Virus record (IMG/VR): IMGVR_UViG_3300035698_003416
Span: 1-20,056 of that record
DNA: 20,056 nt
Strand: one strand, 5' to 3'
Source: a virus
The notes under the pieces were generated by a model, which had not been told where the DNA came from, searched no databases, and saw only the letters and a program-made list of their open reading frames with translations. The translations under genes and the position numbers were made by a program. Positions 683 through 17,868 of this stretch are shown here, in pieces (within the stretch, counting starts at the first letter, position 1; each line of letters begins with the position of its first letter).

Positions 683-1483
683 TTATATAACGGTATACGT
701 TGCTGTAACTGTAACTTTTGTTGCTGGCATTAGTGAAGGCACTTCAGTCCACCCACTAAATGTATACCCAGCTCTTGTTGGATCAGCTGGTGCTGTAACA
801 CCACTTAGATCTGAATCATAGTCATAATCTGCAGTTTGAAGAACTACAGCATCCCAATCAACAAACTCTAATGTATACTGATTAATTATATAAGTTGCTG
901 TAACTATGACATCAGTTCCAGGCATTATTGCAGGAACTACCGAGTCCCATGCATCAAATGTATGTCCAGTTCTTGTTGGGTCAGTTGGTGCTGTAATACC
1001 ACTTAAATCTGCTCCTAAGTCATAATCTGCAGTCTGTAGAACTGTTCCATCATAGTTTATATATGCTACAACAGTTTGATGATCTGTTGTAAATATGTAT
1101 CCTGTTGTTCCTACTACTTTTGCCCTTATTACACCTTTTGTAGTTTCAGTTGCATAAGGTAAATCAAATACTGATGTATCAAGTGTGGTTAGATCAACAC
1201 TCAAACCAAAATATATCGGTGATGATAAGTCCCCACGATCAAATATAACATATAGTACTGTGTCTATTGGTGTGCTAGTTTCAAAGCTTGCTTTATTCAT
1301 AATTGAACCGGGGATCATCATAGGTTTAGCTATTGGACAATCTGTGTCTGGTACTCCTCTTTCAGTACTACCATGAATTGACGGTACTCTTACACGGAGT
1401 CCATATGTTGCTACATCTGATTCATCTTTCATAATCTCTATAACTTTAGCAAAGTAAAATTTATTTTGATGTTTTTGTGCCAT
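683..1483 (-). CDS. Baseplate spike / hub OB-fold protein (gp5/gpV-type N-terminus) with two C-terminal InlB-like B-repeats
   Basis: The 266-residue protein has an N-terminal segment (about residues 8-95) with YGLRVRVPSIHG followed by DTVLYVIFDRGDLSSPIYFG. This is the strand pattern of the OB-fold found at the start of T4 gp5-type and gpV-type spike proteins, which cap the tail tube tip. The C-terminal half holds two repeats, about residues 137-202 and 203-266. Each has LQTADYD, then DLSG(I/V)TAP, DPTR(T/A)G(H/Y)TF and MP..... VTATY, the signature of InlB B-repeat / Listeria-Bacteroides repeats. No lysozyme domain and no long beta-helix is present. It lies directly after the hub-like gene (8 bases between them), with a GAGGAGTAAGTGG ribosome binding site at the end of that gene. 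The OB-fold call is by pattern; the repeat call is stronger. Confidence 0.65.
   Translation of the reverse strand: MAQKHQNKFYFAKVIEIMKDESDVATYGLRVRVPSIHGSTERGVPDTDCPIAKPMMIPGSIMNKASFETSTPIDTVLYVIFDRGDLSSPIYFGLSVDLTTLDTSVFDLPYATETTKGVIRAKVVGTTGYIFTTDHQTVVAYINYDGTVLQTADYDLGADLSGITAPTDPTRTGHTFDAWDSVVPAIMPGTDVIVTATYIINQYTLEFVDWDAVVLQTADYDYDSDLSGVTAPADPTRAGYTFSGWTEVPSLMPATKVTVTATYTVI
686..1075 (-). repeat. Two diverged direct repeats encoding InlB-like B-repeats
   Basis: Bases 686-877 and 878-1075 encode homologous modules of about 65 residues. DNA similarity is clear around the shared cataatctgcagt and ccacttaaatct/ccacttagatct stretches but is well diverged elsewhere. The duplication is therefore older than the 66-bp array at the left end of the window. 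Confidence 0.8.
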
Positions 1484-5158: not shown

Positions 5159-7195
5159 TTAATCAATAGACGCTTTCGTAGCTTCTATTGTTTTTCCTAA
5201 TACTATTACTCTTCTATTTTCTTCATAGTTATCATCTAATGTTCTTTTTAGTACATCTGTTTGTGCATTAATTGCATCAACTATTGGTTCTCCTGTTAAG
5301 AATGAAGCTCCTGAATTTGCTCTAGCTGATTCTCTTCTTTGTGAGTCTAATTCTGATATTGCTGATTTACGATCTTCAGCACCTTTTATTGTATTAGCAA
5401 TACCAATACCAGCACCAATGATTCCACCGATTGCCGCACCAGGTATTCCACCAGCCATAACTCCGGTTAATGCTCCGCCACCTATGCCTCCTACAATGTT
5501 CATTGCTCCGCCACCGATGTTTGCTTGGCTATTAGTTAAATTTTGATTACCTTGTATCTGTCTACCTGCATAATTAGCTCCACCAGCTATTGCTAAACCA
5601 GCAATACCTCCACCTAGTCTTGCACCATTAGATAACATCATTGGGTTTGTAGCCATCATGCCACTTTGTCCCATCTCTGTTCCACTAATACCACCTAAAC
5701 CTTTAAGTAGAGAACCTGCTTTACCTCCACCTAGTGCATTTTGTCCTATAATTATGTTTAATTGTTTTGTAATAGTTCCTAGCATTCCACCTAATCCATA
5801 TAGACCAAATTCCTGCATTGTAGCTCCAGCTGCTTGAGATCCCCATGAGTTTTCCCACCAGTTGTCTAATCGATCAGTAACTGCCATTTTTAAGTTAGCT
5901 AACTCATCTCTCATAGATGTATCAGCACCAGCTAACTTACTCAAAGTACTATCATTATATTCCTCTAAATTATCTCCATGTGTAGTTATACGAAGTAACT
6001 CATCATCAGATAATCCAAATGTTGATCCAATACGACTCATATACTCAGCTCTTACATAATGATCATCTATACCATTCAAAGTTTTCTGAATACCAGAGAA
6101 TAAATCTTTAGTAGCTCCAGCATAATCTTGGCCTATCATTTTTTCTTGGAAATTACCTGTGTCAAATCCATCTAATAAAGCTCCACCTTCATAAATACCT
6201 GCCATTTCTTCCATGGTACCATACTGAGATGTCTTAGCTAGATCTGTAATAAATGTAGCTGATGTCAATCCTATATTTGCAGACAATGCTGCAGCTCTCA
6301 TAAGACTTTCATTTGCTGTAATCTGTGCACTCATGTTACTTCTTGAAATGAAGTTATTTGAATCCATCATATCTGCTACAGAACCTTGAAGCATACCTAA
6401 ACTAATACCGAATGTATCAGAAAAAGCATTCATTCGGTTACCAAGTGCGGTTACAAACGTATCTGTTTGTGCACCAAATATACGATAACTGTTTTGGAAT
6501 GCTGTTAGTAGTCTTGAATCCATAGCTCCTAATGTTTTAGATAGGGTCATTACAGATCCTGCAACACTATTAAGAATTGATGGATCTATGTCACGCCAAC
6601 CCTCACTTAAGAGTTTCTCTTGAGAGTTAATTAAGTCTCTTACATTATGAACTGATTGACCTATTTGGTCATTCATTCTACGTGTAGCTTCATAACCTTC
6701 TTTATATAATTGTCTATAGTTTTCCCAAGTCACGTTTGATTCAAGTTGCATTTTGTGTGAAATTTCAAATATCTTTTCATTACTTTTTATAGATTTGTCT
6801 AGTAGTTTAAGTCCTAATACTTTAGCAGCATTAATTTTCTTTAAAACTTCTACTTGTTTCTGCTTAGTAAGTAATACTTTATTTTCTTTATCAATTGCAT
6901 CTTGTAAAAGATCTCCATTTTCTTTAGAGAATTTTTTATTCTTTTCAGCAAAAGTTAAAATAGTTTTTAAAACTTTAGCACGGTTTTCTTCAGACTTTAC
7001 AAGCTTATTTACTTTCTTTATAACAGCTTCTATCTGACCTGGTGTTGCTATACCAGACCATGTATGGAAATTTGTAACTGCACTTTTCTTATTTTTCTTT
7101 CCGGCTTCCATTACATAATCAATAAATTTTGGTGCTAAAGTTCTTAGTGTCATATCAAGTTCTGCCATTTGTTTTTTACCACTACCTGTTGCCAT
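5159..7195 (-). CDS. Tape-measure-like protein
   Basis: The protein has 678 residues. The first 150 are Lys/Glu-rich and helical (for example NKLVKSEENRAKVLKTIL and KQKQVEVLKKINAAKVLGL), consistent with coiled coil. Residues about 460-600 are rich in Gly/Ala/Ile and hydrophobic (GGGIAGLAIAGGANYAG, GGIGGGALTGVMAGG, IGGIIGAGIGIA), like the membrane-active segments of tail tape measure proteins. These proteins set tail length and pass into the host envelope during DNA ejection. It sits just after the candidate chaperone pair and before the baseplate genes, the classic place. The start ATG follows AGAGGTG. If it is the only tape measure, its length would predict a fairly short tail (roughly 100 nm by the usual 1.5 angstrom per residue rule). 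The family call is inferred from composition and position. Confidence 0.7.
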   Translation of the reverse strand: MATGSGKKQMAELDMTLRTLAPKFIDYVMEAGKKNKKSAVTNFHTWSGIATPGQIEAVIKKVNKLVKSEENRAKVLKTILTFAEKNKKFSKENGDLLQDAIDKENKVLLTKQKQVEVLKKINAAKVLGLKLLDKSIKSNEKIFEISHKMQLESNVTWENYRQLYKEGYEATRRMNDQIGQSVHNVRDLINSQEKLLSEGWRDIDPSILNSVAGSVMTLSKTLGAMDSRLLTAFQNSYRIFGAQTDTFVTALGNRMNAFSDTFGISLGMLQGSVADMMDSNNFISRSNMSAQITANESLMRAAALSANIGLTSATFITDLAKTSQYGTMEEMAGIYEGGALLDGFDTGNFQEKMIGQDYAGATKDLFSGIQKTLNGIDDHYVRAEYMSRIGSTFGLSDDELLRITTHGDNLEEYNDSTLSKLAGADTSMRDELANLKMAVTDRLDNWWENSWGSQAAGATMQEFGLYGLGGMLGTITKQLNIIIGQNALGGGKAGSLLKGLGGISGTEMGQSGMMATNPMMLSNGARLGGGIAGLAIAGGANYAGRQIQGNQNLTNSQANIGGGAMNIVGGIGGGALTGVMAGGIPGAAIGGIIGAGIGIANTIKGAEDRKSAISELDSQRRESARANSGASFLTGEPIVDAINAQTDVLKRTLDDNYEENRRVIVLGKTIEATKASID

Positions 7196-7208: not shown

Positions 7209-7493
7209 TTATTTTTTAGAGCGATCGTTTTCCTGGTTCTGTTCTATCTGTCTCTGTTTTTTAAGTAATGTAAACCAGTTCTTAAGCTCAAACAGTGACA
7301 TGTTGTCAGTGTCTTCTTTGCTAATATTGCCAGCATATGACAACACAAACTGCAACTCCATCAAATCGAGAACTTCTCTTTCTCTCTGTTCATAGAAAGA
7401 GGTTTGAAGCTTTTGTGATAATCCATCTAATGTGTCAAAACCATATTTATATAATTCTATTATACTAACGAAACATATCGGCGTTAATGCCAA
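7209..7493 (-). CDS. Small protein between gp26-like gene and tape measure; candidate downstream half of a tail assembly chaperone pair
   Basis: The frame is open from a TTG at 7493 and encodes 94 residues, Lys/Glu/Gln-rich at the end (LLKKQRQIEQNQENDRSKK). It contains no ATG close to its beginning. The first internal ATG is near residue 40 and would cut off well-formed sequence. It overlaps the upstream gene by 29 bases in the +1 frame. It could start at the TTG, because an AGGAGG lies only 2 bases before it, a poor spacing. It could also be made as a C-terminal extension of the upstream protein by +1 frameshifting. Its place between tube and tape measure is where tail assembly chaperone frameshift products lie in many phages. 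The sequence itself is not recognised. Confidence 0.65.
   Translation of the reverse strand: MALTPICFVSIIELYKYGFDTLDGLSQKLQTSFYEQREREVLDLMELQFVLSYAGNISKEDTDNMSLFELKNWFTLLKKQRQIEQNQENDRSKK
7465..7493 (-). promoter_or_regulatory. Candidate +1 programmed frameshift site in the gene overlap
   Basis: Upstream-frame codons at the end of the overlap read GAT ATG TTT CGT TAG. A peptidyl-tRNA-Phe on TTT (7473-7471) can slip forward by one base to TTC with perfect wobble pairing, bypassing the TAG at 7467-7465 and continuing GTT AGT ATA ATA GAA in the frame of the small downstream ORF. The fusion would be about 311 residues. No -1 heptamer fits, since the downstream frame is +1. An AGGAGG lies about 20 bases upstream, farther than the stimulatory Shine-Dalgarno of prfB. 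Confidence 0.4.
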
Positions 7494-8145
7494 TACCTCC
7501 TGTAATATCTAATTTGCATTTTTTACATGGTACTTTGTATGTTGTGTCTAAACCAAATTTTAGTACCAACTTTTCTGATAAGCGTACCAAGTCATTGCCT
7601 GGTAAGTTCTCTAATAGTCCTACAAGCTCCCCTATGGACATTCTTTTCCCATCTATAGTTTTTATCTTACTTGCTATTAATAAGATGAATGAGTACTCTG
7701 GGGGTAGGTTACGTTTCTCTTTGTGACTATTTATAGCATTCCATGTAACTTTTGTAGCTACTTGTCTAGTTACTTTCATACCATTATCTAGTTCGATAGT
7801 AATATCTAGATCTTCAAGTTCTAAAGATTTACTTTCAAAGTTTGCATAACTTACATCATGTTCTTCTATGTTACCACAGAAAGGACATTTTAATGTTTGT
7901 TTAATATCATCACCAAATGTTAGTGTTCTAGTTTTATGAAGAATATAATACTTATCTTCATCACATAATGATGCTGGATCTAAAGATGGGTCTGTTACTG
8001 TTTTAATGATTGCTTCTATTGCAGGTTCATTCAATGAACTGTATAAGGTAGATATTTCTTTACCTTTCATACCTCTTATAACAACTTCTGCAGGTGTTCC
8101 TAATAATCCGTTAGATGGTAATTTTACTCTATCAATGTTATCCAT
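7465..8145 (-). CDS. T4 gp26-like baseplate/tail assembly protein with two CxxC zinc motifs
   Basis: The protein has 226 residues. It opens with VKLPSNGLLGTPAEVVIRGMKGKEI, which matches the beginning of the T4 gp26-type 'T4 baseplate' family (LPS.G......V..R.MT..EE). Cysteine pairs at C87/C90 (CPFC) and C207/C210 (CKKC) would form a zinc ribbon. The region between is strand-rich, then helical (PPEYSFILLIASKI, GELVGLLENLP). In T4, gp26 is a minor baseplate-hub assembly protein. In other myoviruses relatives of this family sit between tube and tape measure as chaperone-like proteins. The gene follows a 168-base spacer after the tail tube gene and is preceded by AAAGGAGAAG. Its end overlaps the small ORF that may be reached by frameshifting. 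The family call is moderately strong; the chaperone role is inferred from context. Confidence 0.65.
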   Translation of the reverse strand: MDNIDRVKLPSNGLLGTPAEVVIRGMKGKEISTLYSSLNEPAIEAIIKTVTDPSLDPASLCDEDKYYILHKTRTLTFGDDIKQTLKCPFCGNIEEHDVSYANFESKSLELEDLDITIELDNGMKVTRQVATKVTWNAINSHKEKRNLPPEYSFILLIASKIKTIDGKRMSIGELVGLLENLPGNDLVRLSEKLVLKFGLDTTYKVPCKKCKLDITGGIGINADMFR

Positions 8146-8313: not shown

Positions 8314-8859
8314 TTAATCTTCTACAGGATATTGTTCATATGTAGGAGCAAAACTTCTTGATGGATCGATTTGAATAGTAAATGAAATTTGTTTCAATTC
8401 ACCTTGTGTAGCATCTAGCTCACCAGGATCAAGATCGGAAATCCACATACCTTCAACTAACCATTTTCTAATGAATGCTCCATTAGAACCATACTCTGTA
8501 ATAAATCCTTTTTTCTTATAACCACTAGAACCTTCAGCATAACCAATGTTTCCTTCTTCCCAGTCATAAGTAATTTTAAACCAAGCAAGCAATGCACTAA
8601 GTTCATCCTGATTAAGTGTGTCAATAATAGTAACTTGTCCACCTTCCCAAGAAGCAACTCCTGCAAATTTCTTTGCATCATTACCATGTCTTAGTTCTAA
8701 TACATTTAAGCTTACTTTAGGAAGGAAAGCTTTTTGAACTATTAATTCTAATGAGTTGTCTGCAGTCATTACACCACCAATACTTAGTATAAAGTTATTG
8801 GTACGTCTAACATCACCTAGTAAATTTGTTAAATTCTTAGTTGATATGATTTTGCCCAT
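8314..8859 (-). CDS. Tail tube protein (T4 gp19-like)
   Basis: The protein has 181 residues, close to the usual size for contractile-tail tube subunits. Key stretches are FLPKVSLNVLELRHGNDAKK, GQVTIIDTLNQDELSALLAW, FITEYGSNGAFIRKWLVEGMW and ISDLDPGELDATQGELKQIS followed by FTIQID. Together they give the strand order and the K.W.L.GAW.....GELD....D..QI..TI..D end of gp19-type tube proteins. These subunits stack in rings inside the sheath and form the channel for DNA. The start codon overlaps the sheath stop codon by one base (TAATG), so the two major tail proteins are translationally coupled. A CAGGAGGTGT ribosome binding site lies within the end of the sheath gene. A terminator-like hairpin follows. 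Confidence 0.85.
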   Translation of the reverse strand: MGKIISTKNLTNLLGDVRRTNNFILSIGGVMTADNSLELIVQKAFLPKVSLNVLELRHGNDAKKFAGVASWEGGQVTIIDTLNQDELSALLAWFKITYDWEEGNIGYAEGSSGYKKKGFITEYGSNGAFIRKWLVEGMWISDLDPGELDATQGELKQISFTIQIDPSRSFAPTYEQYPVED

Positions 8860-10076
8860 TATAATACACCTCCTGTAATATTTACATTGTAGATGTTATT
8901 AGTCTCACTAATTGTTACATTGAATGTAATATTTTCTACAACGTTAATTGGATTAAAGCTTACTGCTATTTTTAATGTTCCTGCTTCAATTTCTTCAGCA
9001 GTCATTGTGATACCTTTACCGATAGATACAACATATGTTGTAATACCTTCACTTTGTTTCATATCAGATAGATATGCTTCAAGTTGTAATTGTAGGCTAT
9101 CCCAAGTCTTTTGATTATTTGGTAGGAATTCTGTTGATAAACCACTTGTAATCAGATAACGTTTAACCGCTAATGCTGTTGTTACTGCATGACTTCTCAT
9201 CAGTGTATCATCTGCAACACCATATTGTGTATTTTGTGAAACAAATAATGGACCAATACCAACTCTTGAAATCATTACATTAACATAACCAGCTTGGAAT
9301 AATTCTTTTTCCACAGTTGTAAGTGATCTTTCAAGTGATGTAAACTCAGGTACTTTACCATTTCTTTCACCAGCTACAGGAATCCACGGTTTAGCTTCTT
9401 TCATTAGTTTTACTTTTCTTACTAATGCTGCAAGTGATGCAGGAATACCTGTGAATAGAGACTCATTGTCTGCACCGAAATCTATAGTAGACGTAAATCT
9501 ACTACCTTCACTTGTAAATCCAGAGTTAATAAATAGTTCAATCTTAGGTGAAGCATCAGCTAATGTTATTAATGGAATATCTGTTGCTGCTGCAAGTGGT
9601 GTAAGATCCAAGAATAGTTGTATGTCCCTAACACTATCATATGCAACTGCTTCAGTTACTGTAGTATTAGCTACAAAAGCTGTTAACACATCTTCATCAT
9701 CATCTGCTGCGACATATGAGAATGGTGAAACAATGAATTTGTAACCTAATTCTGTAACATCTACAATGTTTGGAATATCATCTGCTAAAGTGAATGCTGT
9801 CCTATTTTCTACGAAGTATACTAATACGCTTACCCCACGATTAATTAGATATTCAAGTGCATATATTTCCTGCGCTTCTGCCAATAGGGTATCTCCAGTT
9901 GCTGGAGTTGTTAATATTGCATCTAATGCGGATACATCATATGCATCTACCTTAACTATGTCCCCTGCTACTGTTGGAGACTTTGGCACTGCATTTCTTA
10001 GTATAACTAACGCAAGTCCTTCATCATTTACTTGTGGTACTGCGCGTTCTGTTTGTACATTTACTATAATTGCCAT
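8859..10076 (-). CDS. Contractile tail sheath protein (T4 gp18-like)
   Basis: The protein has 405 residues, short beside T4 gp18 (about 660) but within the range of compact sheath proteins. The C-terminal core shows PWIPVAGERNGKVPEFTSLER, SLTTVEKELFQAGYVNVM, a long segment ending in RSHAVTTALAVKRYLITSGL, and STEFLPNNQKTWDSLQLQLE. This is the sheath-like fold in which extended termini link neighbouring subunits. The N-terminal half has an inserted domain (TLADDIPNIVDVTELGYKFIV). It stands directly upstream of, and overlaps, the tube gene, which supports the call. The start ATG follows an AAAGAGAGG ribosome binding site. Contraction of this protein drives the tube through the host envelope. Confidence 0.85.
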   Translation of the reverse strand: MAIIVNVQTERAVPQVNDEGLALVILRNAVPKSPTVAGDIVKVDAYDVSALDAILTTPATGDTLLAEAQEIYALEYLINRGVSVLVYFVENRTAFTLADDIPNIVDVTELGYKFIVSPFSYVAADDDEDVLTAFVANTTVTEAVAYDSVRDIQLFLDLTPLAAATDIPLITLADASPKIELFINSGFTSEGSRFTSTIDFGADNESLFTGIPASLAALVRKVKLMKEAKPWIPVAGERNGKVPEFTSLERSLTTVEKELFQAGYVNVMISRVGIGPLFVSQNTQYGVADDTLMRSHAVTTALAVKRYLITSGLSTEFLPNNQKTWDSLQLQLEAYLSDMKQSEGITTYVVSIGKGITMTAEEIEAGTLKIAVSFNPINVVENITFNVTISETNNIYNVNITGGVL

Positions 10077-13676: not shown

Positions 13677-15764
13677 TTATTCACCAGGTTTTAAATCTGC
13701 TAAGTATCCTAATTCTTCATCTGTTAATTCATCTAGATCTTCATCTGTTAGATTTTCTAAATCAATAGCTTCTTCTTCATCTGTTAGATCATCTTCTAAG
13801 TCATCTTCAAGATTATCTTCAAGATTATCTTCTAAGTCGTCCCCAAGGTCCTCTAAATCAATTTCAGATTCTTCAGCGGGTATTAAATATTCTTTAAGTT
13901 CTGTTAACAGCGCGAATACTTCTTTAATAGTGGGTTCTGGTTCTTCTTCGTCATCTTCATTTTCTTCGTCTTCAACGTCATCTTCATTTTCTTCGTCTTC
14001 ATTTTCTTCGTCTTCATTTTCTTCGTCTTCAACATCATCTTCATTTTCAACATCATCATCAGTTAACTGTAATTCTTTTTCTTTTTCTTCATCAACGAAA
14101 TCTTCAATTGCATTACCTTCAACAATTACATGATTGTGATTAATACGAAGCAGTTTAGTTTCAGTTAATTCTCTTAGCTGTGCATTAATAAGAACACGCT
14201 CTGCAATATTACATTTTACATCAAATCTGATTTTTTCGCCATATTTGTCTAATTCATAATATATACCATTCTCTTTTAATACTTTGATCATTTTCTTAGC
14301 ACGAGCTTCTGTTAAGTTCATTCTATAGAATTTTCTATCTGTTGACATAATATCCATTTTACTCTCTCCTAACACGCTTAGTGCTGATTTATTTTTCTCT
14401 AGTAACTCAACTACTAGTTGAATTGAGTTATCTTTTTGTGATGCTAAATAGTTTACTAACTCTCGAGGATCCATAGTATAAATGAAATCTACATTATCTT
14501 TTACTAATAGGTGCGCAATTTGTTTCATTGTAACCGCTAATAAATCAGTGAACTTATCATTATCAATATAGGCTATTGCAACTTTAGCTTGTAATCTTAG
14601 GTTTGCATTATTATACTTTGCATATACTTCAGGATTTGCTTGCTCAAGTCCATCTTCAAACGTTGTCATAAGACCACTAAGTGAGATGAATCCAAGATTT
14701 AATAATTGATTAGCATTAGCTTTTGTCCACAGTTTCCTATTTTCTTCCTTACTAGTTTCTGTAAGGACTTCTGTGTGTTCTACTGTTACAGCTTCATCAA
14801 TTTCTATTGGTTTTTGATCAATATCTTCAAGTTCTGCTTGAACTTCATATAATGCATCTTTAATTTGTTGAACAATTTTTTCACGGTTTCCACCATATTT
14901 TTTCTCAAACTCTTCATCAGACATTTTATTTGCATTATATAAACCATTTTGATACTCATTTTCTTTATCTCTTAATGCATCTACATATTTTTTCTTAGCA
15001 TCTTTAACAGCATTAGCTTCGAATTTGAATGTTTGGGTTTTTTCCTCTTCTTCAGGTTTATCTAAGTTTTCAGCAAATTTAGTATAAACTTTCTCATGCT
15101 CTTTATCATCTTTAGCTAAGTCTTTGATTGATTCAGTTAGTGGTCTTAATTTCTTAGACCCCTTTTTTGATTCATTCAAGTTTGCGACTGCTGTTTGGAA
15201 TGAAGGGTTATAAACAAAGTCAAATGACATAAGTTGAAAACTCTCAGGTATGATTGCTTCTACGTATCCATCTGCTTCTTCAAGTGTTTCAGAATCACCA
15301 AGTGCTCTTGACGATACACCAAGTAAGTCTCCTCCACCTTTTAGTTTTGCATATTCTAAGAATGTTTTAATTATCCTACCTTGAGGGTTATTTAGAATGT
15401 CTGCTGAACCATCCCATGAACCATCGTCATTTCTATGTACATCAGACCAAGCAATAGCAGCTTCGTTTAGTGTGAGCTCCGCTCTATCATCTAATGGGTG
15501 ATCAACACTACCAAATAATGATGTAGGTTTTAGTTTACCACTTTCGTCAATAAACTTACCACCTTTACCAAATGAGTCATGTTGTGCCCATACAGCTTCA
15601 GAATATCTAGTACGATTCTGTGAGATTTGACCTTCAATTGTCATGCCTTTAACATTAAATGCTCCTAATATAGGACTATCAGTATTATATCCTTTGTCCG
15701 ATTTCTTATAAGATTCTACAATCCCTACATTAAAACTCGTTTCTTTAATTAGTTTTTTAGCCAT
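13677..15764 (-). CDS. Prohead protease (T4 gp21-like) fused to a long acidic scaffold-like region
   Basis: The protein has 695 residues, while T4 gp21 has about 212. Residues 38-190 match the gp21 plan: VKGMTIEGQISQNRTRYSEAVW, with GSVDHP giving the catalytic His (H89), then LLGVSSRALG giving the catalytic Ser (S151 or S152; T4 has GVSSRGLG). Residues 195-345 are helical and highly charged. Residues 470-555 look like a small folded domain (MDIMSTDRKFYRMNLTEARA). Residues 555-690 are extremely acidic, with repeated NEDEE and DLEDNLED units. L-(N/T/G)-E motifs at 196-198, 209-211, 334-336, 465-467, 484-486, 533-535 and 620-622 fit the (L/I)-x-E cleavage rule, so the protein may cut itself. It directly precedes the capsid gene. 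The protease assignment is strong; the scaffold role of the rest is inferred from composition and context. Confidence 0.8.
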   Translation of the reverse strand: MAKKLIKETSFNVGIVESYKKSDKGYNTDSPILGAFNVKGMTIEGQISQNRTRYSEAVWAQHDSFGKGGKFIDESGKLKPTSLFGSVDHPLDDRAELTLNEAAIAWSDVHRNDDGSWDGSADILNNPQGRIIKTFLEYAKLKGGGDLLGVSSRALGDSETLEEADGYVEAIIPESFQLMSFDFVYNPSFQTAVANLNESKKGSKKLRPLTESIKDLAKDDKEHEKVYTKFAENLDKPEEEEKTQTFKFEANAVKDAKKKYVDALRDKENEYQNGLYNANKMSDEEFEKKYGGNREKIVQQIKDALYEVQAELEDIDQKPIEIDEAVTVEHTEVLTETSKEENRKLWTKANANQLLNLGFISLSGLMTTFEDGLEQANPEVYAKYNNANLRLQAKVAIAYIDNDKFTDLLAVTMKQIAHLLVKDNVDFIYTMDPRELVNYLASQKDNSIQLVVELLEKNKSALSVLGESKMDIMSTDRKFYRMNLTEARAKKMIKVLKENGIYYELDKYGEKIRFDVKCNIAERVLINAQLRELTETKLLRINHNHVIVEGNAIEDFVDEEKEKELQLTDDDVENEDDVEDEENEDEENEDEENEDDVEDEENEDDEEEPEPTIKEVFALLTELKEYLIPAEESEIDLEDLGDDLEDNLEDNLEDDLEDDLTDEEEAIDLENLTDEDLDELTDEELGYLADLKPGE
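13930..14060 (-). repeat. Short tandem repeats encoding acidic NEDEE-type runs
   Basis: On the plus strand, units of about 15 bases built from cttcgtcttcattttcttcg recur with minor changes, giving the repeated ENEDEE/ENEDDVED blocks at protein residues about 572-607. A second run at 13790-13845 (variants of cttcaagattat and cttctaagtca) encodes DLEDNLED-type units. Such runs expand and contract easily, so length differences between relatives are likely. Confidence 0.85.
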
Positions 15765-16319: not shown

Positions 16320-16559
16320 CTAGATCTTTTTAACTTGGTAAGCTCTCAATCCATTTTCTTCAAATTGCTTGTAAAGAAATTCTACTTGATCTCCTACGCT
16401 TAAGGTTTTCTTACCTTCCATAATGATGGCTGAATAATGCACATAAATATCTCTGTCTAAATCATCTTCACATGATATAAAGCCATAACCATTCACAGAA
16501 TTGAAGCTCTTAACTACTCCACGTCCTTGTTTTGCAATTGTATTGTCTTCTGTATTCAT
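16320..16559 (-). CDS. Cold-shock-domain protein
   Basis: A 79-residue protein with one cold-shock domain: GRGVVKSFNSVNGYGFISCE (RNP1 at 24-31), RDIYVHYSAI (RNP2 at about 39-44) and the C-terminal GDQVEFLYKQFEENGLRAYQV. Such domains bind single-stranded RNA or DNA and melt secondary structure. The usual W in the first strand (VKWFN) is S18 here, so one stacking aromatic is missing while the RNP aromatics remain (Y25, F27, Y39, Y42). An eight-residue charged N-terminal extension precedes the domain. The ATG follows AGAAGGAGAAAAGTT. The gene lies between the reverse transcriptase and the head genes and has its own upstream spacer with a possible promoter. Either a general RNA chaperone for the phage or a partner for the neighbouring reverse transcriptase would fit. 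The family call is secure. Confidence 0.92.
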   Translation of the reverse strand: MNTEDNTIAKQGRGVVKSFNSVNGYGFISCEDDLDRDIYVHYSAIIMEGKKTLSVGDQVEFLYKQFEENGLRAYQVKKI

Positions 16560-16674: not shown

Positions 16675-17868
16675 TCAATGTTTTTGTTTTCTGATCTTAT
16701 AATATTCTGCAACAAGGCTCTTATAGCCCATGTGTTTGATGTCTTTGTATGATAATCTATAGAACTTTTTACCACGGTGCCATGTTCCAGAATCCAAAAA
16801 ACGAATACAAGTAACGAAGTATAGATCTAAATACTTGAGACTTTCAGTTGTTGAGATATTGGGTAAATACCAACGGCTCCAATTGATTGAATCGTCTTGA
16901 TCTGAGTAAAGTTTTTGATTAATAAGGCTAATATAGTTTCTAAGAGCTTTATACTTAGGAACTCTTTTCTTTTTCATCCATATACGATACCATTTAGCAC
17001 GACGTTTGAAACGACTTTTCATTTTTGCTAATGCATCTTCTGAAATGTCTGTTATATTTCCCTTATGTTTAAATCCTAAGAAGGTGATCCCAGTTCTTAG
17101 TGTCATAGTCTTCATCTTTTTGGGATTTAATCTTACTCCTGCTTCAGCTACACCTTTTTTGAAAGCTTCCAAAGCCTCTTCGCCATGTATCAAAGTATCA
17201 TCTGCGTAACGTATATAATGATACTTGCGCTCATACATCAGCGTATCTACTTTGTGCATAAAGACGTTTGCTAAGATGCCGGCTATTGGTGAACCAGCCA
17301 TAACTCCTTTAGTTTCTACAGTTTCAATCTTGTCTCCCACGAATACTTGTTGTTCACGTAATAGCTTCATGATAAAAATATGGAGATCTTTGTCCTCTAA
17401 ATCTAGAAAGTCAATTAGTTTAGCATCTAGTAGATTAATATCTATAGAGTTAAAATAGTCTGAAAAGTCATTTTTATATACAAGATCATCTGGTTTCAGA
17501 TGAAAGCTTCCTAATATGCTAAAAGCCGATCTCACTGAACGGCCTTGTGTATATGCAATACTATTTTTACAGAATGAATTATTATACTTTGACAACATAT
17601 ATTTTCCTACTACTTTTAGTATTGATCTATATGGTTCTGGGTACACATACACAATTCTCTTCTTGCTCGTATTGTAGTGGCTTATCTGAACTAATCTAGA
17701 TAAACTAAATGTATCCATAAACTCCTTATCAAATTTTAAATATTGTTCATCTTTAATAATCTTCTTAACTGTCTTTATTGTTTTGTGATCTGGATAGTCC
17801 TTTTCTTCTTCTAATGCTAAAAATTCTTCCCAGGTCTCTCTTTGTGTTACTAACTCGTATAAACTCAT
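16675..17868 (-). CDS. Reverse transcriptase of uncertain class (YADD active site)
   Basis: The protein has 397 residues. Fingers/palm motifs appear in order: KKRIVYVYPEPYRSILKVVG (residues 69-88), AYTQGRSVRSAF (105-116), motif A KNDFSDYFNSID (132-143, catalytic D134), GVMAGSPIAGILANVFM (188-204), motif C YIRYADDTLIHG (218-229, catalytic D223/D224) and ITFLGFKHKG (261-270). A basic helical segment (KMKSRFKRRAKWYRIWMKKK) and about 90 C-terminal residues follow, possibly a thumb plus a family-specific domain. The SP in GSPIAG argues against a diversity-generating element, where SQ is usual. No HNH domain or intron domain V is visible, and the upstream gap of 38 bases leaves no room for a retron RNA. 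The start follows an excellent AGGAGGTAG site. It lies between the holin and cold-shock genes. A group II-like or unknown-group RT is my best guess. RT activity is strongly predicted; its role is unknown. Confidence 0.88.
   Translation of the reverse strand: MSLYELVTQRETWEEFLALEEEKDYPDHKTIKTVKKIIKDEQYLKFDKEFMDTFSLSRLVQISHYNTSKKRIVYVYPEPYRSILKVVGKYMLSKYNNSFCKNSIAYTQGRSVRSAFSILGSFHLKPDDLVYKNDFSDYFNSIDINLLDAKLIDFLDLEDKDLHIFIMKLLREQQVFVGDKIETVETKGVMAGSPIAGILANVFMHKVDTLMYERKYHYIRYADDTLIHGEEALEAFKKGVAEAGVRLNPKKMKTMTLRTGITFLGFKHKGNITDISEDALAKMKSRFKRRAKWYRIWMKKKRVPKYKALRNYISLINQKLYSDQDDSINWSRWYLPNISTTESLKYLDLYFVTCIRFLDSGTWHRGKKFYRLSYKDIKHMGYKSLVAEYYKIRKQKH

Follow-up and report, generated by a model that had tools for sequence, protein, structure and literature searches.

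The window, a 20,056-nt stretch of a virus record, carries on its minus strand genes for a gp23-like capsid protein, a tail sheath and a tail tube, followed by a 226-aa gene, a small ORF and a 678-aa ORF (Table 1). The 226-aa gene matches PF12322, and the sheath and tube genes upstream of it, with the gp23-like capsid protein, correspond to a contractile-tailed phage. The 678-aa ORF starts with ATG behind a normal Shine-Dalgarno sequence (AGAGGTGA) and had no Pfam matches above the cut-off; by position and character it is probably the tape measure protein. Elsewhere in the window, a reverse transcriptase ORF (16675-17868, minus strand; RVT_1, E 6e-19) lies inside the region of phage structural genes, with a cold-shock domain protein (16320-16559, minus strand; CSD, E 4e-19) directly downstream. 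A 695-aa ORF (13677-15764, minus strand) with no Pfam match has a long acidic (E/D/N) repeat run near its C-terminus, and the ORF at 683-1483 (minus strand) contains Listeria-Bacteroides (Flg_new / InlB B-type) repeats in its C-terminal part.

Table 1 Features at the predicted chaperone locus and neighboring structural genes (positions in the window).
Feature	Position	Strand	Basis or remark
gp23-like major capsid protein	13559-11883	-	Upstream of the tail sheath gene
Tail sheath protein	8859..10076	-	PF17482, E 3e-7; PHROG 23, E 3e-11
Tail tube protein, directly upstream of the 226-aa gene	8314..8859	-	PHROG 4542, E 1e-14
Predicted short chaperone form (TAC-N, T4 gp26-like), 226 aa, TAG stop	7465..8145	-	PF12322 T4_baseplate / PHROG 150
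Stop-to-stop +1 ORF	7209..7508	-	Overlaps the upstream gene for 41 nt before its stop codon
Rival start: AGGAGG 7501-7496, 2-nt spacer, TTG 7493-7491	7491..7501	-	Not conserved
Candidate slip site TTT_C	7470..7473	-	TTT 7473-7471 in P site, C 7470 skipped; 0-frame continues CGT, TAG
Predicted +1-frame extension, TAC-C domain, 86 aa + TAA (VSIIELYK...SKK)	7209..7469	-	hhalign with shuffled controls
Predicted fusion, 311 aa (TAC-NC, gp51-like)	7209..8145	-	Single +1 step, at F225
Putative tape measure protein, 678 aa, directly downstream	5159..7195	-	Position, length, glycine-rich hydrophobic stretch

The 226-aa protein (hereafter, the hub) matched PF12322, the family of T4 gp26 and gp51, over residues 1-211 (40.7 bits, cut-off 24.5; Pfam E 2.7e-10), as well as PHROG 150 (E 5e-14). 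Its cysteine pairs C87/C90 and C207/C210 are invariant across 22 aligned loci, and its AlphaFold2 model was confident (mean pLDDT 87.6). An earlier reading, made from the sequence only, had called this protein gp26-like, which agrees with the PF12322 match but is too narrow, as gp26 and gp51 would be the T4 counterparts of a short and a long form of one protein.

The small ORF is in the +1 frame relative to the hub gene and overlaps it on the minus strand, as that sequence-only reading had stated. Its open frame begins at 7508, after a TAG at 7511, and ends with TAA at 7211-7209, and the hub gene ends, again as described there, with ATG(7476-7474) TTT(7473-7471) CGT(7470-7468) TAG(7467-7465). 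The absence of an ATG near the start of the small ORF was likewise borne out: the first is about 110 nt beyond the candidate slip site, within the encoded domain, and the only early start codon is the TTG at 7493. The window's long minus-strand ORFs contain 4,534 codon starts, and at none of them was an 86-codon +1 opening seen (mononucleotide expectation, 0.0007). A small overlapping ORF in another frame, just before the putative tape measure gene, is the arrangement of a frameshifted tail assembly chaperone. The predicted fusion was translated with TTTC read as F, a four-base step used once only, and its expected junction-spanning peptide is ADMFVSIIELYK.

The frame relation was compared across 28 loci, i.e., the window, three isolates, 21 non-redundant complete-end loci and three later phages. 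The isolate phages GXN1 (Streptococcus), LIS04 (Listeria) and SP-15 (Bacillus) have a +1-frame ORF at the same place (24-26% identity), which is unannotated or only partly annotated. Single-protein scans of viral contigs with the hub or the tape measure protein gave no matches, whereas scans with an alignment query, covering viral contigs and one bacterial genome contig, did, and 21/21 of these loci were +1. The other three are Microcystis phage Mel-JY01, Streptomyces phage BRock and a 484-kb phage. In all 28 loci classed as +1, the window included, the extension overlaps the hub gene, and an ordinary non-overlapping gene starting with ATG, a possibility the sequence-only reading had raised for relatives, was found in none from the window's branch. 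In one of these loci (L007, 3662-3838) the extension stops after 47 aa, unlike that of its close relative L039, which we attribute to local frame loss or a sequence error. Outside the counts, a bacterial genome contig carries a divergent copy of the PF12322 gene (L069, 1340-1560) that also has a +1-frame ORF, with TTT_CGC within the overlap; this locus was excluded because this TTT_CGC is about 25 codons ahead of the stop codon, off the usual motif.

The loci also share a site, GAR-TTY-TTT-C, at a C-terminal EFFR motif. In the window, C follows the P-site UUU and the +1 frame is open, which makes this a UUU_C-type site; the GAR-TTY codons that are usual ahead of TTT are absent there. At this motif, 23 of the 28 loci have TTT_C, three CCC_A, one TTT_A (LIS04) and one TTT_T (L040). 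The CCC_A loci form a clade (L033, 3692-3946; L035, 3692-3952; L037, 3710-3985) in which TTT_C is lost and a CCC_AGT two codons on leads into the +1 frame; the Phe slip site has apparently been replaced by a Pro slip site. In a diverged set, comprising 14 of the 25 fully analysed loci with <50% mutual identity, TTT_C was present at the motif in 13/14, compared with a background of 8% of TTT codons followed by C in the coding sequence of these loci (log10 P -12.8, nominal because loci are treated as independent). The arginine codon behaves similarly: it is CGN in 18/18 of the fully analysed loci that have Arg at the motif, while upstream in the same genes the ratio is 45 CGN to 215 AGR, usually with AGA dominant (log10 P -9.1 for 13 diverged loci, nominal for the same reason). 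At <50% mutual identity, such shared synonymous sites are not expected through descent alone. Both the TTT-C stretch and the frame relation, whose conservation the sequence-only reading had proposed to check, are thus retained in distant relatives.

Given the conserved frame and site, the homology of the extension and the single gene copy (both described below), the two ORFs very probably constitute one tail assembly chaperone gene, predicted to be expressed as a short and a long form via +1 frameshifting. Joining the two ORFs in this way had been put forward as a candidate in the sequence-only reading, and conservation in the 27 further loci was decisive for accepting the overlap as real. The same conservation bears on whether the frame break is an artefact. 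In a 20-kb virus record of metagenome type such as the window, an assembly error or a decayed gene might be suspected, but the same break with the same codons occurs in the 27 other loci, including the isolates GXN1, LIS04 and SP-15; as independent genomes share it, this explanation is in practice refuted and has a negligible probability.

The sequence of the site also discriminates among ways of changing frame. Slippage of the RNA polymerase on a T run might do so in the many relatives with T6, or in L040 with T7, a run that allows other explanations of that locus. The window has only TGTTTCG, with three T, on which ground transcriptional slippage was rejected for it, and six loci (L002, L008, L012, L013, L014 and L028) have TTCTTTC, again with three-T runs; we regard a transcriptional origin of the frame change as scarcely credible. 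A -2 rather than a +1 shift, which the sequence-only reading had left as an option, reaches the same frame with one extra residue (ADMFFVS; expected junction peptide ADMFFVSIIELYK). It has been reported for phage Mu (PMC5009743), and re-pairing would be possible in loci with TTT TTT. In the window, however, tRNA-Phe would sit on TGT, and in the same six loci on TCT, so a -2 shift does not fit these seven sequences and is highly unlikely, leaving the +1 part of the earlier proposal as the supported one. For a +1 shift, tRNA-Phe can re-pair from UUU to UUC at every TTT_C locus; the TTT_A locus (LIS04, L003) offers poor P-site re-pairing.

The extension might instead be a separate protein, started at the TTG with its AGGAGG, in which case the product would begin MALTPICFVSIIELYK..., or re-initiated past the upstream stop codon. 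The TTG and AGGAGG that the sequence-only reading had offered as the rival do exist in the window, at a spacing of just 2 nt, but they are private to it and conserved nowhere else, and were rejected on that account as a general mechanism. Re-initiation is possible in L016, L029 and L037, which have an ATG 10-16 nt beyond the motif. On the other hand, the +1 ORF of L010 contains no ATG, GTG or TTG anywhere, so internal initiation cannot be general; several other loci have no start codon ahead of the conserved domain, and in most loci other than L010 the first start is inside that domain or unconserved. A separate start would also leave the conservation of TTT_C and CGN unexplained. In the Vibrio phages K448 (L056) and VAP7 (L057), the extension overlaps the hub stop codon as TAATG, with no slippery heptamer, and may be a separately started gene; these two phages belong to the other branch of the tree. 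Overall, we consider separate initiation very unlikely, and +1 frameshifting remains our reading of the window and its relatives.

Single-sequence searches with the extension gave no match in phage records, Pfam or PHROGs, so profile comparison was needed. The +1 extensions matched the -1 extensions of cyanophage-type genes (hhalign score 41.3; shuffled maximum, 12.5), and the latter matched the C-terminal region of Tevenvirinae-type gp51 (48.2; shuffled maximum, 16.9). Compared directly with gp51, the +1 extensions scored lower, though above the control (25.4; control, 12.2), and in the same register, and whole +1 fusions aligned colinearly with gp51. By these profile alignments, the +1 extension and the C-terminus of T4 gp51 (TAC-C) are homologous via the -1 extensions; gp51 itself consists of the family domain followed by this C-terminal domain. 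AlphaFold2, run on hub and extension separately as plain translations, modelled the extension as a helical hairpin (mean pLDDT 85.7).

An extension in the -1 frame was found in the phages S-CAM9, S-8S53, S-MS29, P-SSM2, Syn19, phiM19 and OspM_OC, and also in phiAS5, Moby, PhiW-14, IG49, PA5oct and a 595-kb phage. These genomes carry a phased T_TTT_TTC or T_TTT_TTT (T_TTT_TTY) at the same xFF codons, and in several of them the extension is annotated as a short separate gp51. The window differs from this group, as its extension is in the +1 frame and its site, ATG TTT CGT, is not a phased X_XXY_YYZ heptamer. Cyanophage gp51 was noted to be without about the first 200 residues (Sullivan 2010; PMC3037559), which under a frameshift reading would be because gp26 supplies them. 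T4 has two copies of PF12322, and the 15 frameshift-type records that were counted, including a bacterial MAG, have one apiece. In the phylogeny, the -1 users together with T4-type separate genes are divided from a branch of all +1 users plus two -1 users; the main branch is fully supported, while some long branches make single placements, the window's included, unsure. The two -1 users in this mostly +1 branch, the 595-kb phage (L041) and Pseudomonas phage PA5oct (L045), have T_TTT_TTC and long branches, and their placement is unsure.

From these comparisons we infer the P-site mechanism, the efficiency of the shift and the binding partners of the products. Most ribosomes would end at the TAG and release the 226-aa short form (TAC-N, like T4 gp26). 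In some ribosomes, while CGU waits in the A site, the peptidyl-tRNA-Phe paired with UUU in the P site would slip one base forward and re-pair with UUC, and reading would resume at GUU AGU AUA to give the 311-aa long form (TAC-NC, gp51-like) with its helical C-terminal domain. The TTT_C and CCC_A sites have UUU and CCC, respectively, in the P site, and these two codons are quoted as ranking just behind CUU in +1 slipperiness at prfB (PMC10885494). No conserved RNA structure was found downstream of the site, where most loci, except L034, fold no better than shuffles, so the efficiency may be low; likewise, no conserved Shine-Dalgarno element was identified upstream. By analogy to lambda gpG/gpGT, the expected role of the short form is to coat the tape measure protein and that of the long form is to recruit subunits of the tail tube, and neither form need remain in the virion; T4 gp51 is reported to be absent from the final particle (PMC3004832).

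The likeness to lambda gpG/gpGT is one of layout, with a short and a frameshift-extended form encoded before the tape measure gene (PMC5009743), while the lambda shift is -1, unlike the +1 of the window. Wide conservation of lambda G-T-type frameshifting has been described for long-tailed phages 'except T4', the direction being -1, -2 or +1 depending on the phage (PMC5009743). T4 has two genes and no frameshift, whereas the window type has one gene. As represented in papers that cite it, the study of Vladimirov, Gautam & Davidson 2022 (doi 10.1016/j.virol.2021.11.003) identified the chaperone genes of T4-like phages, some of which have a separate fused long gene and others poly-T -1 sites (PMC10885494; PMC12846349). 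Those TAC-N and TAC-NC products are likewise short and long forms, cited as made by -1 shifts, while the window and its branch have +1 at UUU_C. The cyanophage-type gp26 with short 'gp51' (S-CAM9, P-SSM2, Syn19, phiM19) is closer, with a homologous hub and extension, the same location before the next large gene and the site at the same xFF codons, again in the -1 frame at T_TTT_TTY. For the +1 site itself, the nearest likeness is UUU_CGU of influenza PA-X (Firth 2012, in PMC5009743), with the same P- and A-site codons, the same direction and no evident stimulator; the gene is unrelated and the ribosome eukaryotic, so this is a resemblance of mechanism only. Among phages, the Listeria phage PSA/A118/A500 sites (CCC_U; PMC5009743) show +1 shifting in tail genes and recall the CCC_A of L033, L035 and L037, although they lie in tail shaft and capsid genes, and the tail chaperone of haloarchaeal myovirus HSTV-2 is also +1 (PMC5009743).

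A +1 shift here was judged unusual in the sequence-only reading, which is right insofar as the published T4-like cases are -1 and less so for phage tail genes at large, where +1 is known; the +1 shift is therefore a variant and not a first. The open literature searched, in which Vladimirov 2022 is represented by its citing papers, yielded no description of a UUU_C +1 site for the gp26/gp51 family. As far as these sources go, frameshifted T4-like chaperones are already published (as -1), and what they do not report is the conserved +1 UUU_C variant.

Taken together, it seems fairly probable that a T4-related branch ranging from Firmicutes phages (SP-15) to metagenomic megaphages makes its chaperone by a stimulator-poor +1 shift at UUU_C (in one clade, at CCC_A) that has hitherto gone unreported, and that its sister branch shifts -1 at the same Phe-Phe codons. 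This fits the published view that gp26 and gp51 represent, in T4, a single chaperone in its short and its long form, and would call for re-annotation of the small ORF, for which these genomes have a partial annotation or none. It would also provide, in bacterial viruses, a conserved natural +1 site that works in most members of the family without a stop codon in the A site. Since homologues shift -1 at the same place, the choice of shift direction is testable with matched natural sequences, among them those of SP-15 and LIS04, which can be propagated on the laboratory hosts Bacillus subtilis and Listeria innocua, respectively. If true, one homologous chaperone has switched the direction of its frameshift, with the product kept and the decoding changed.
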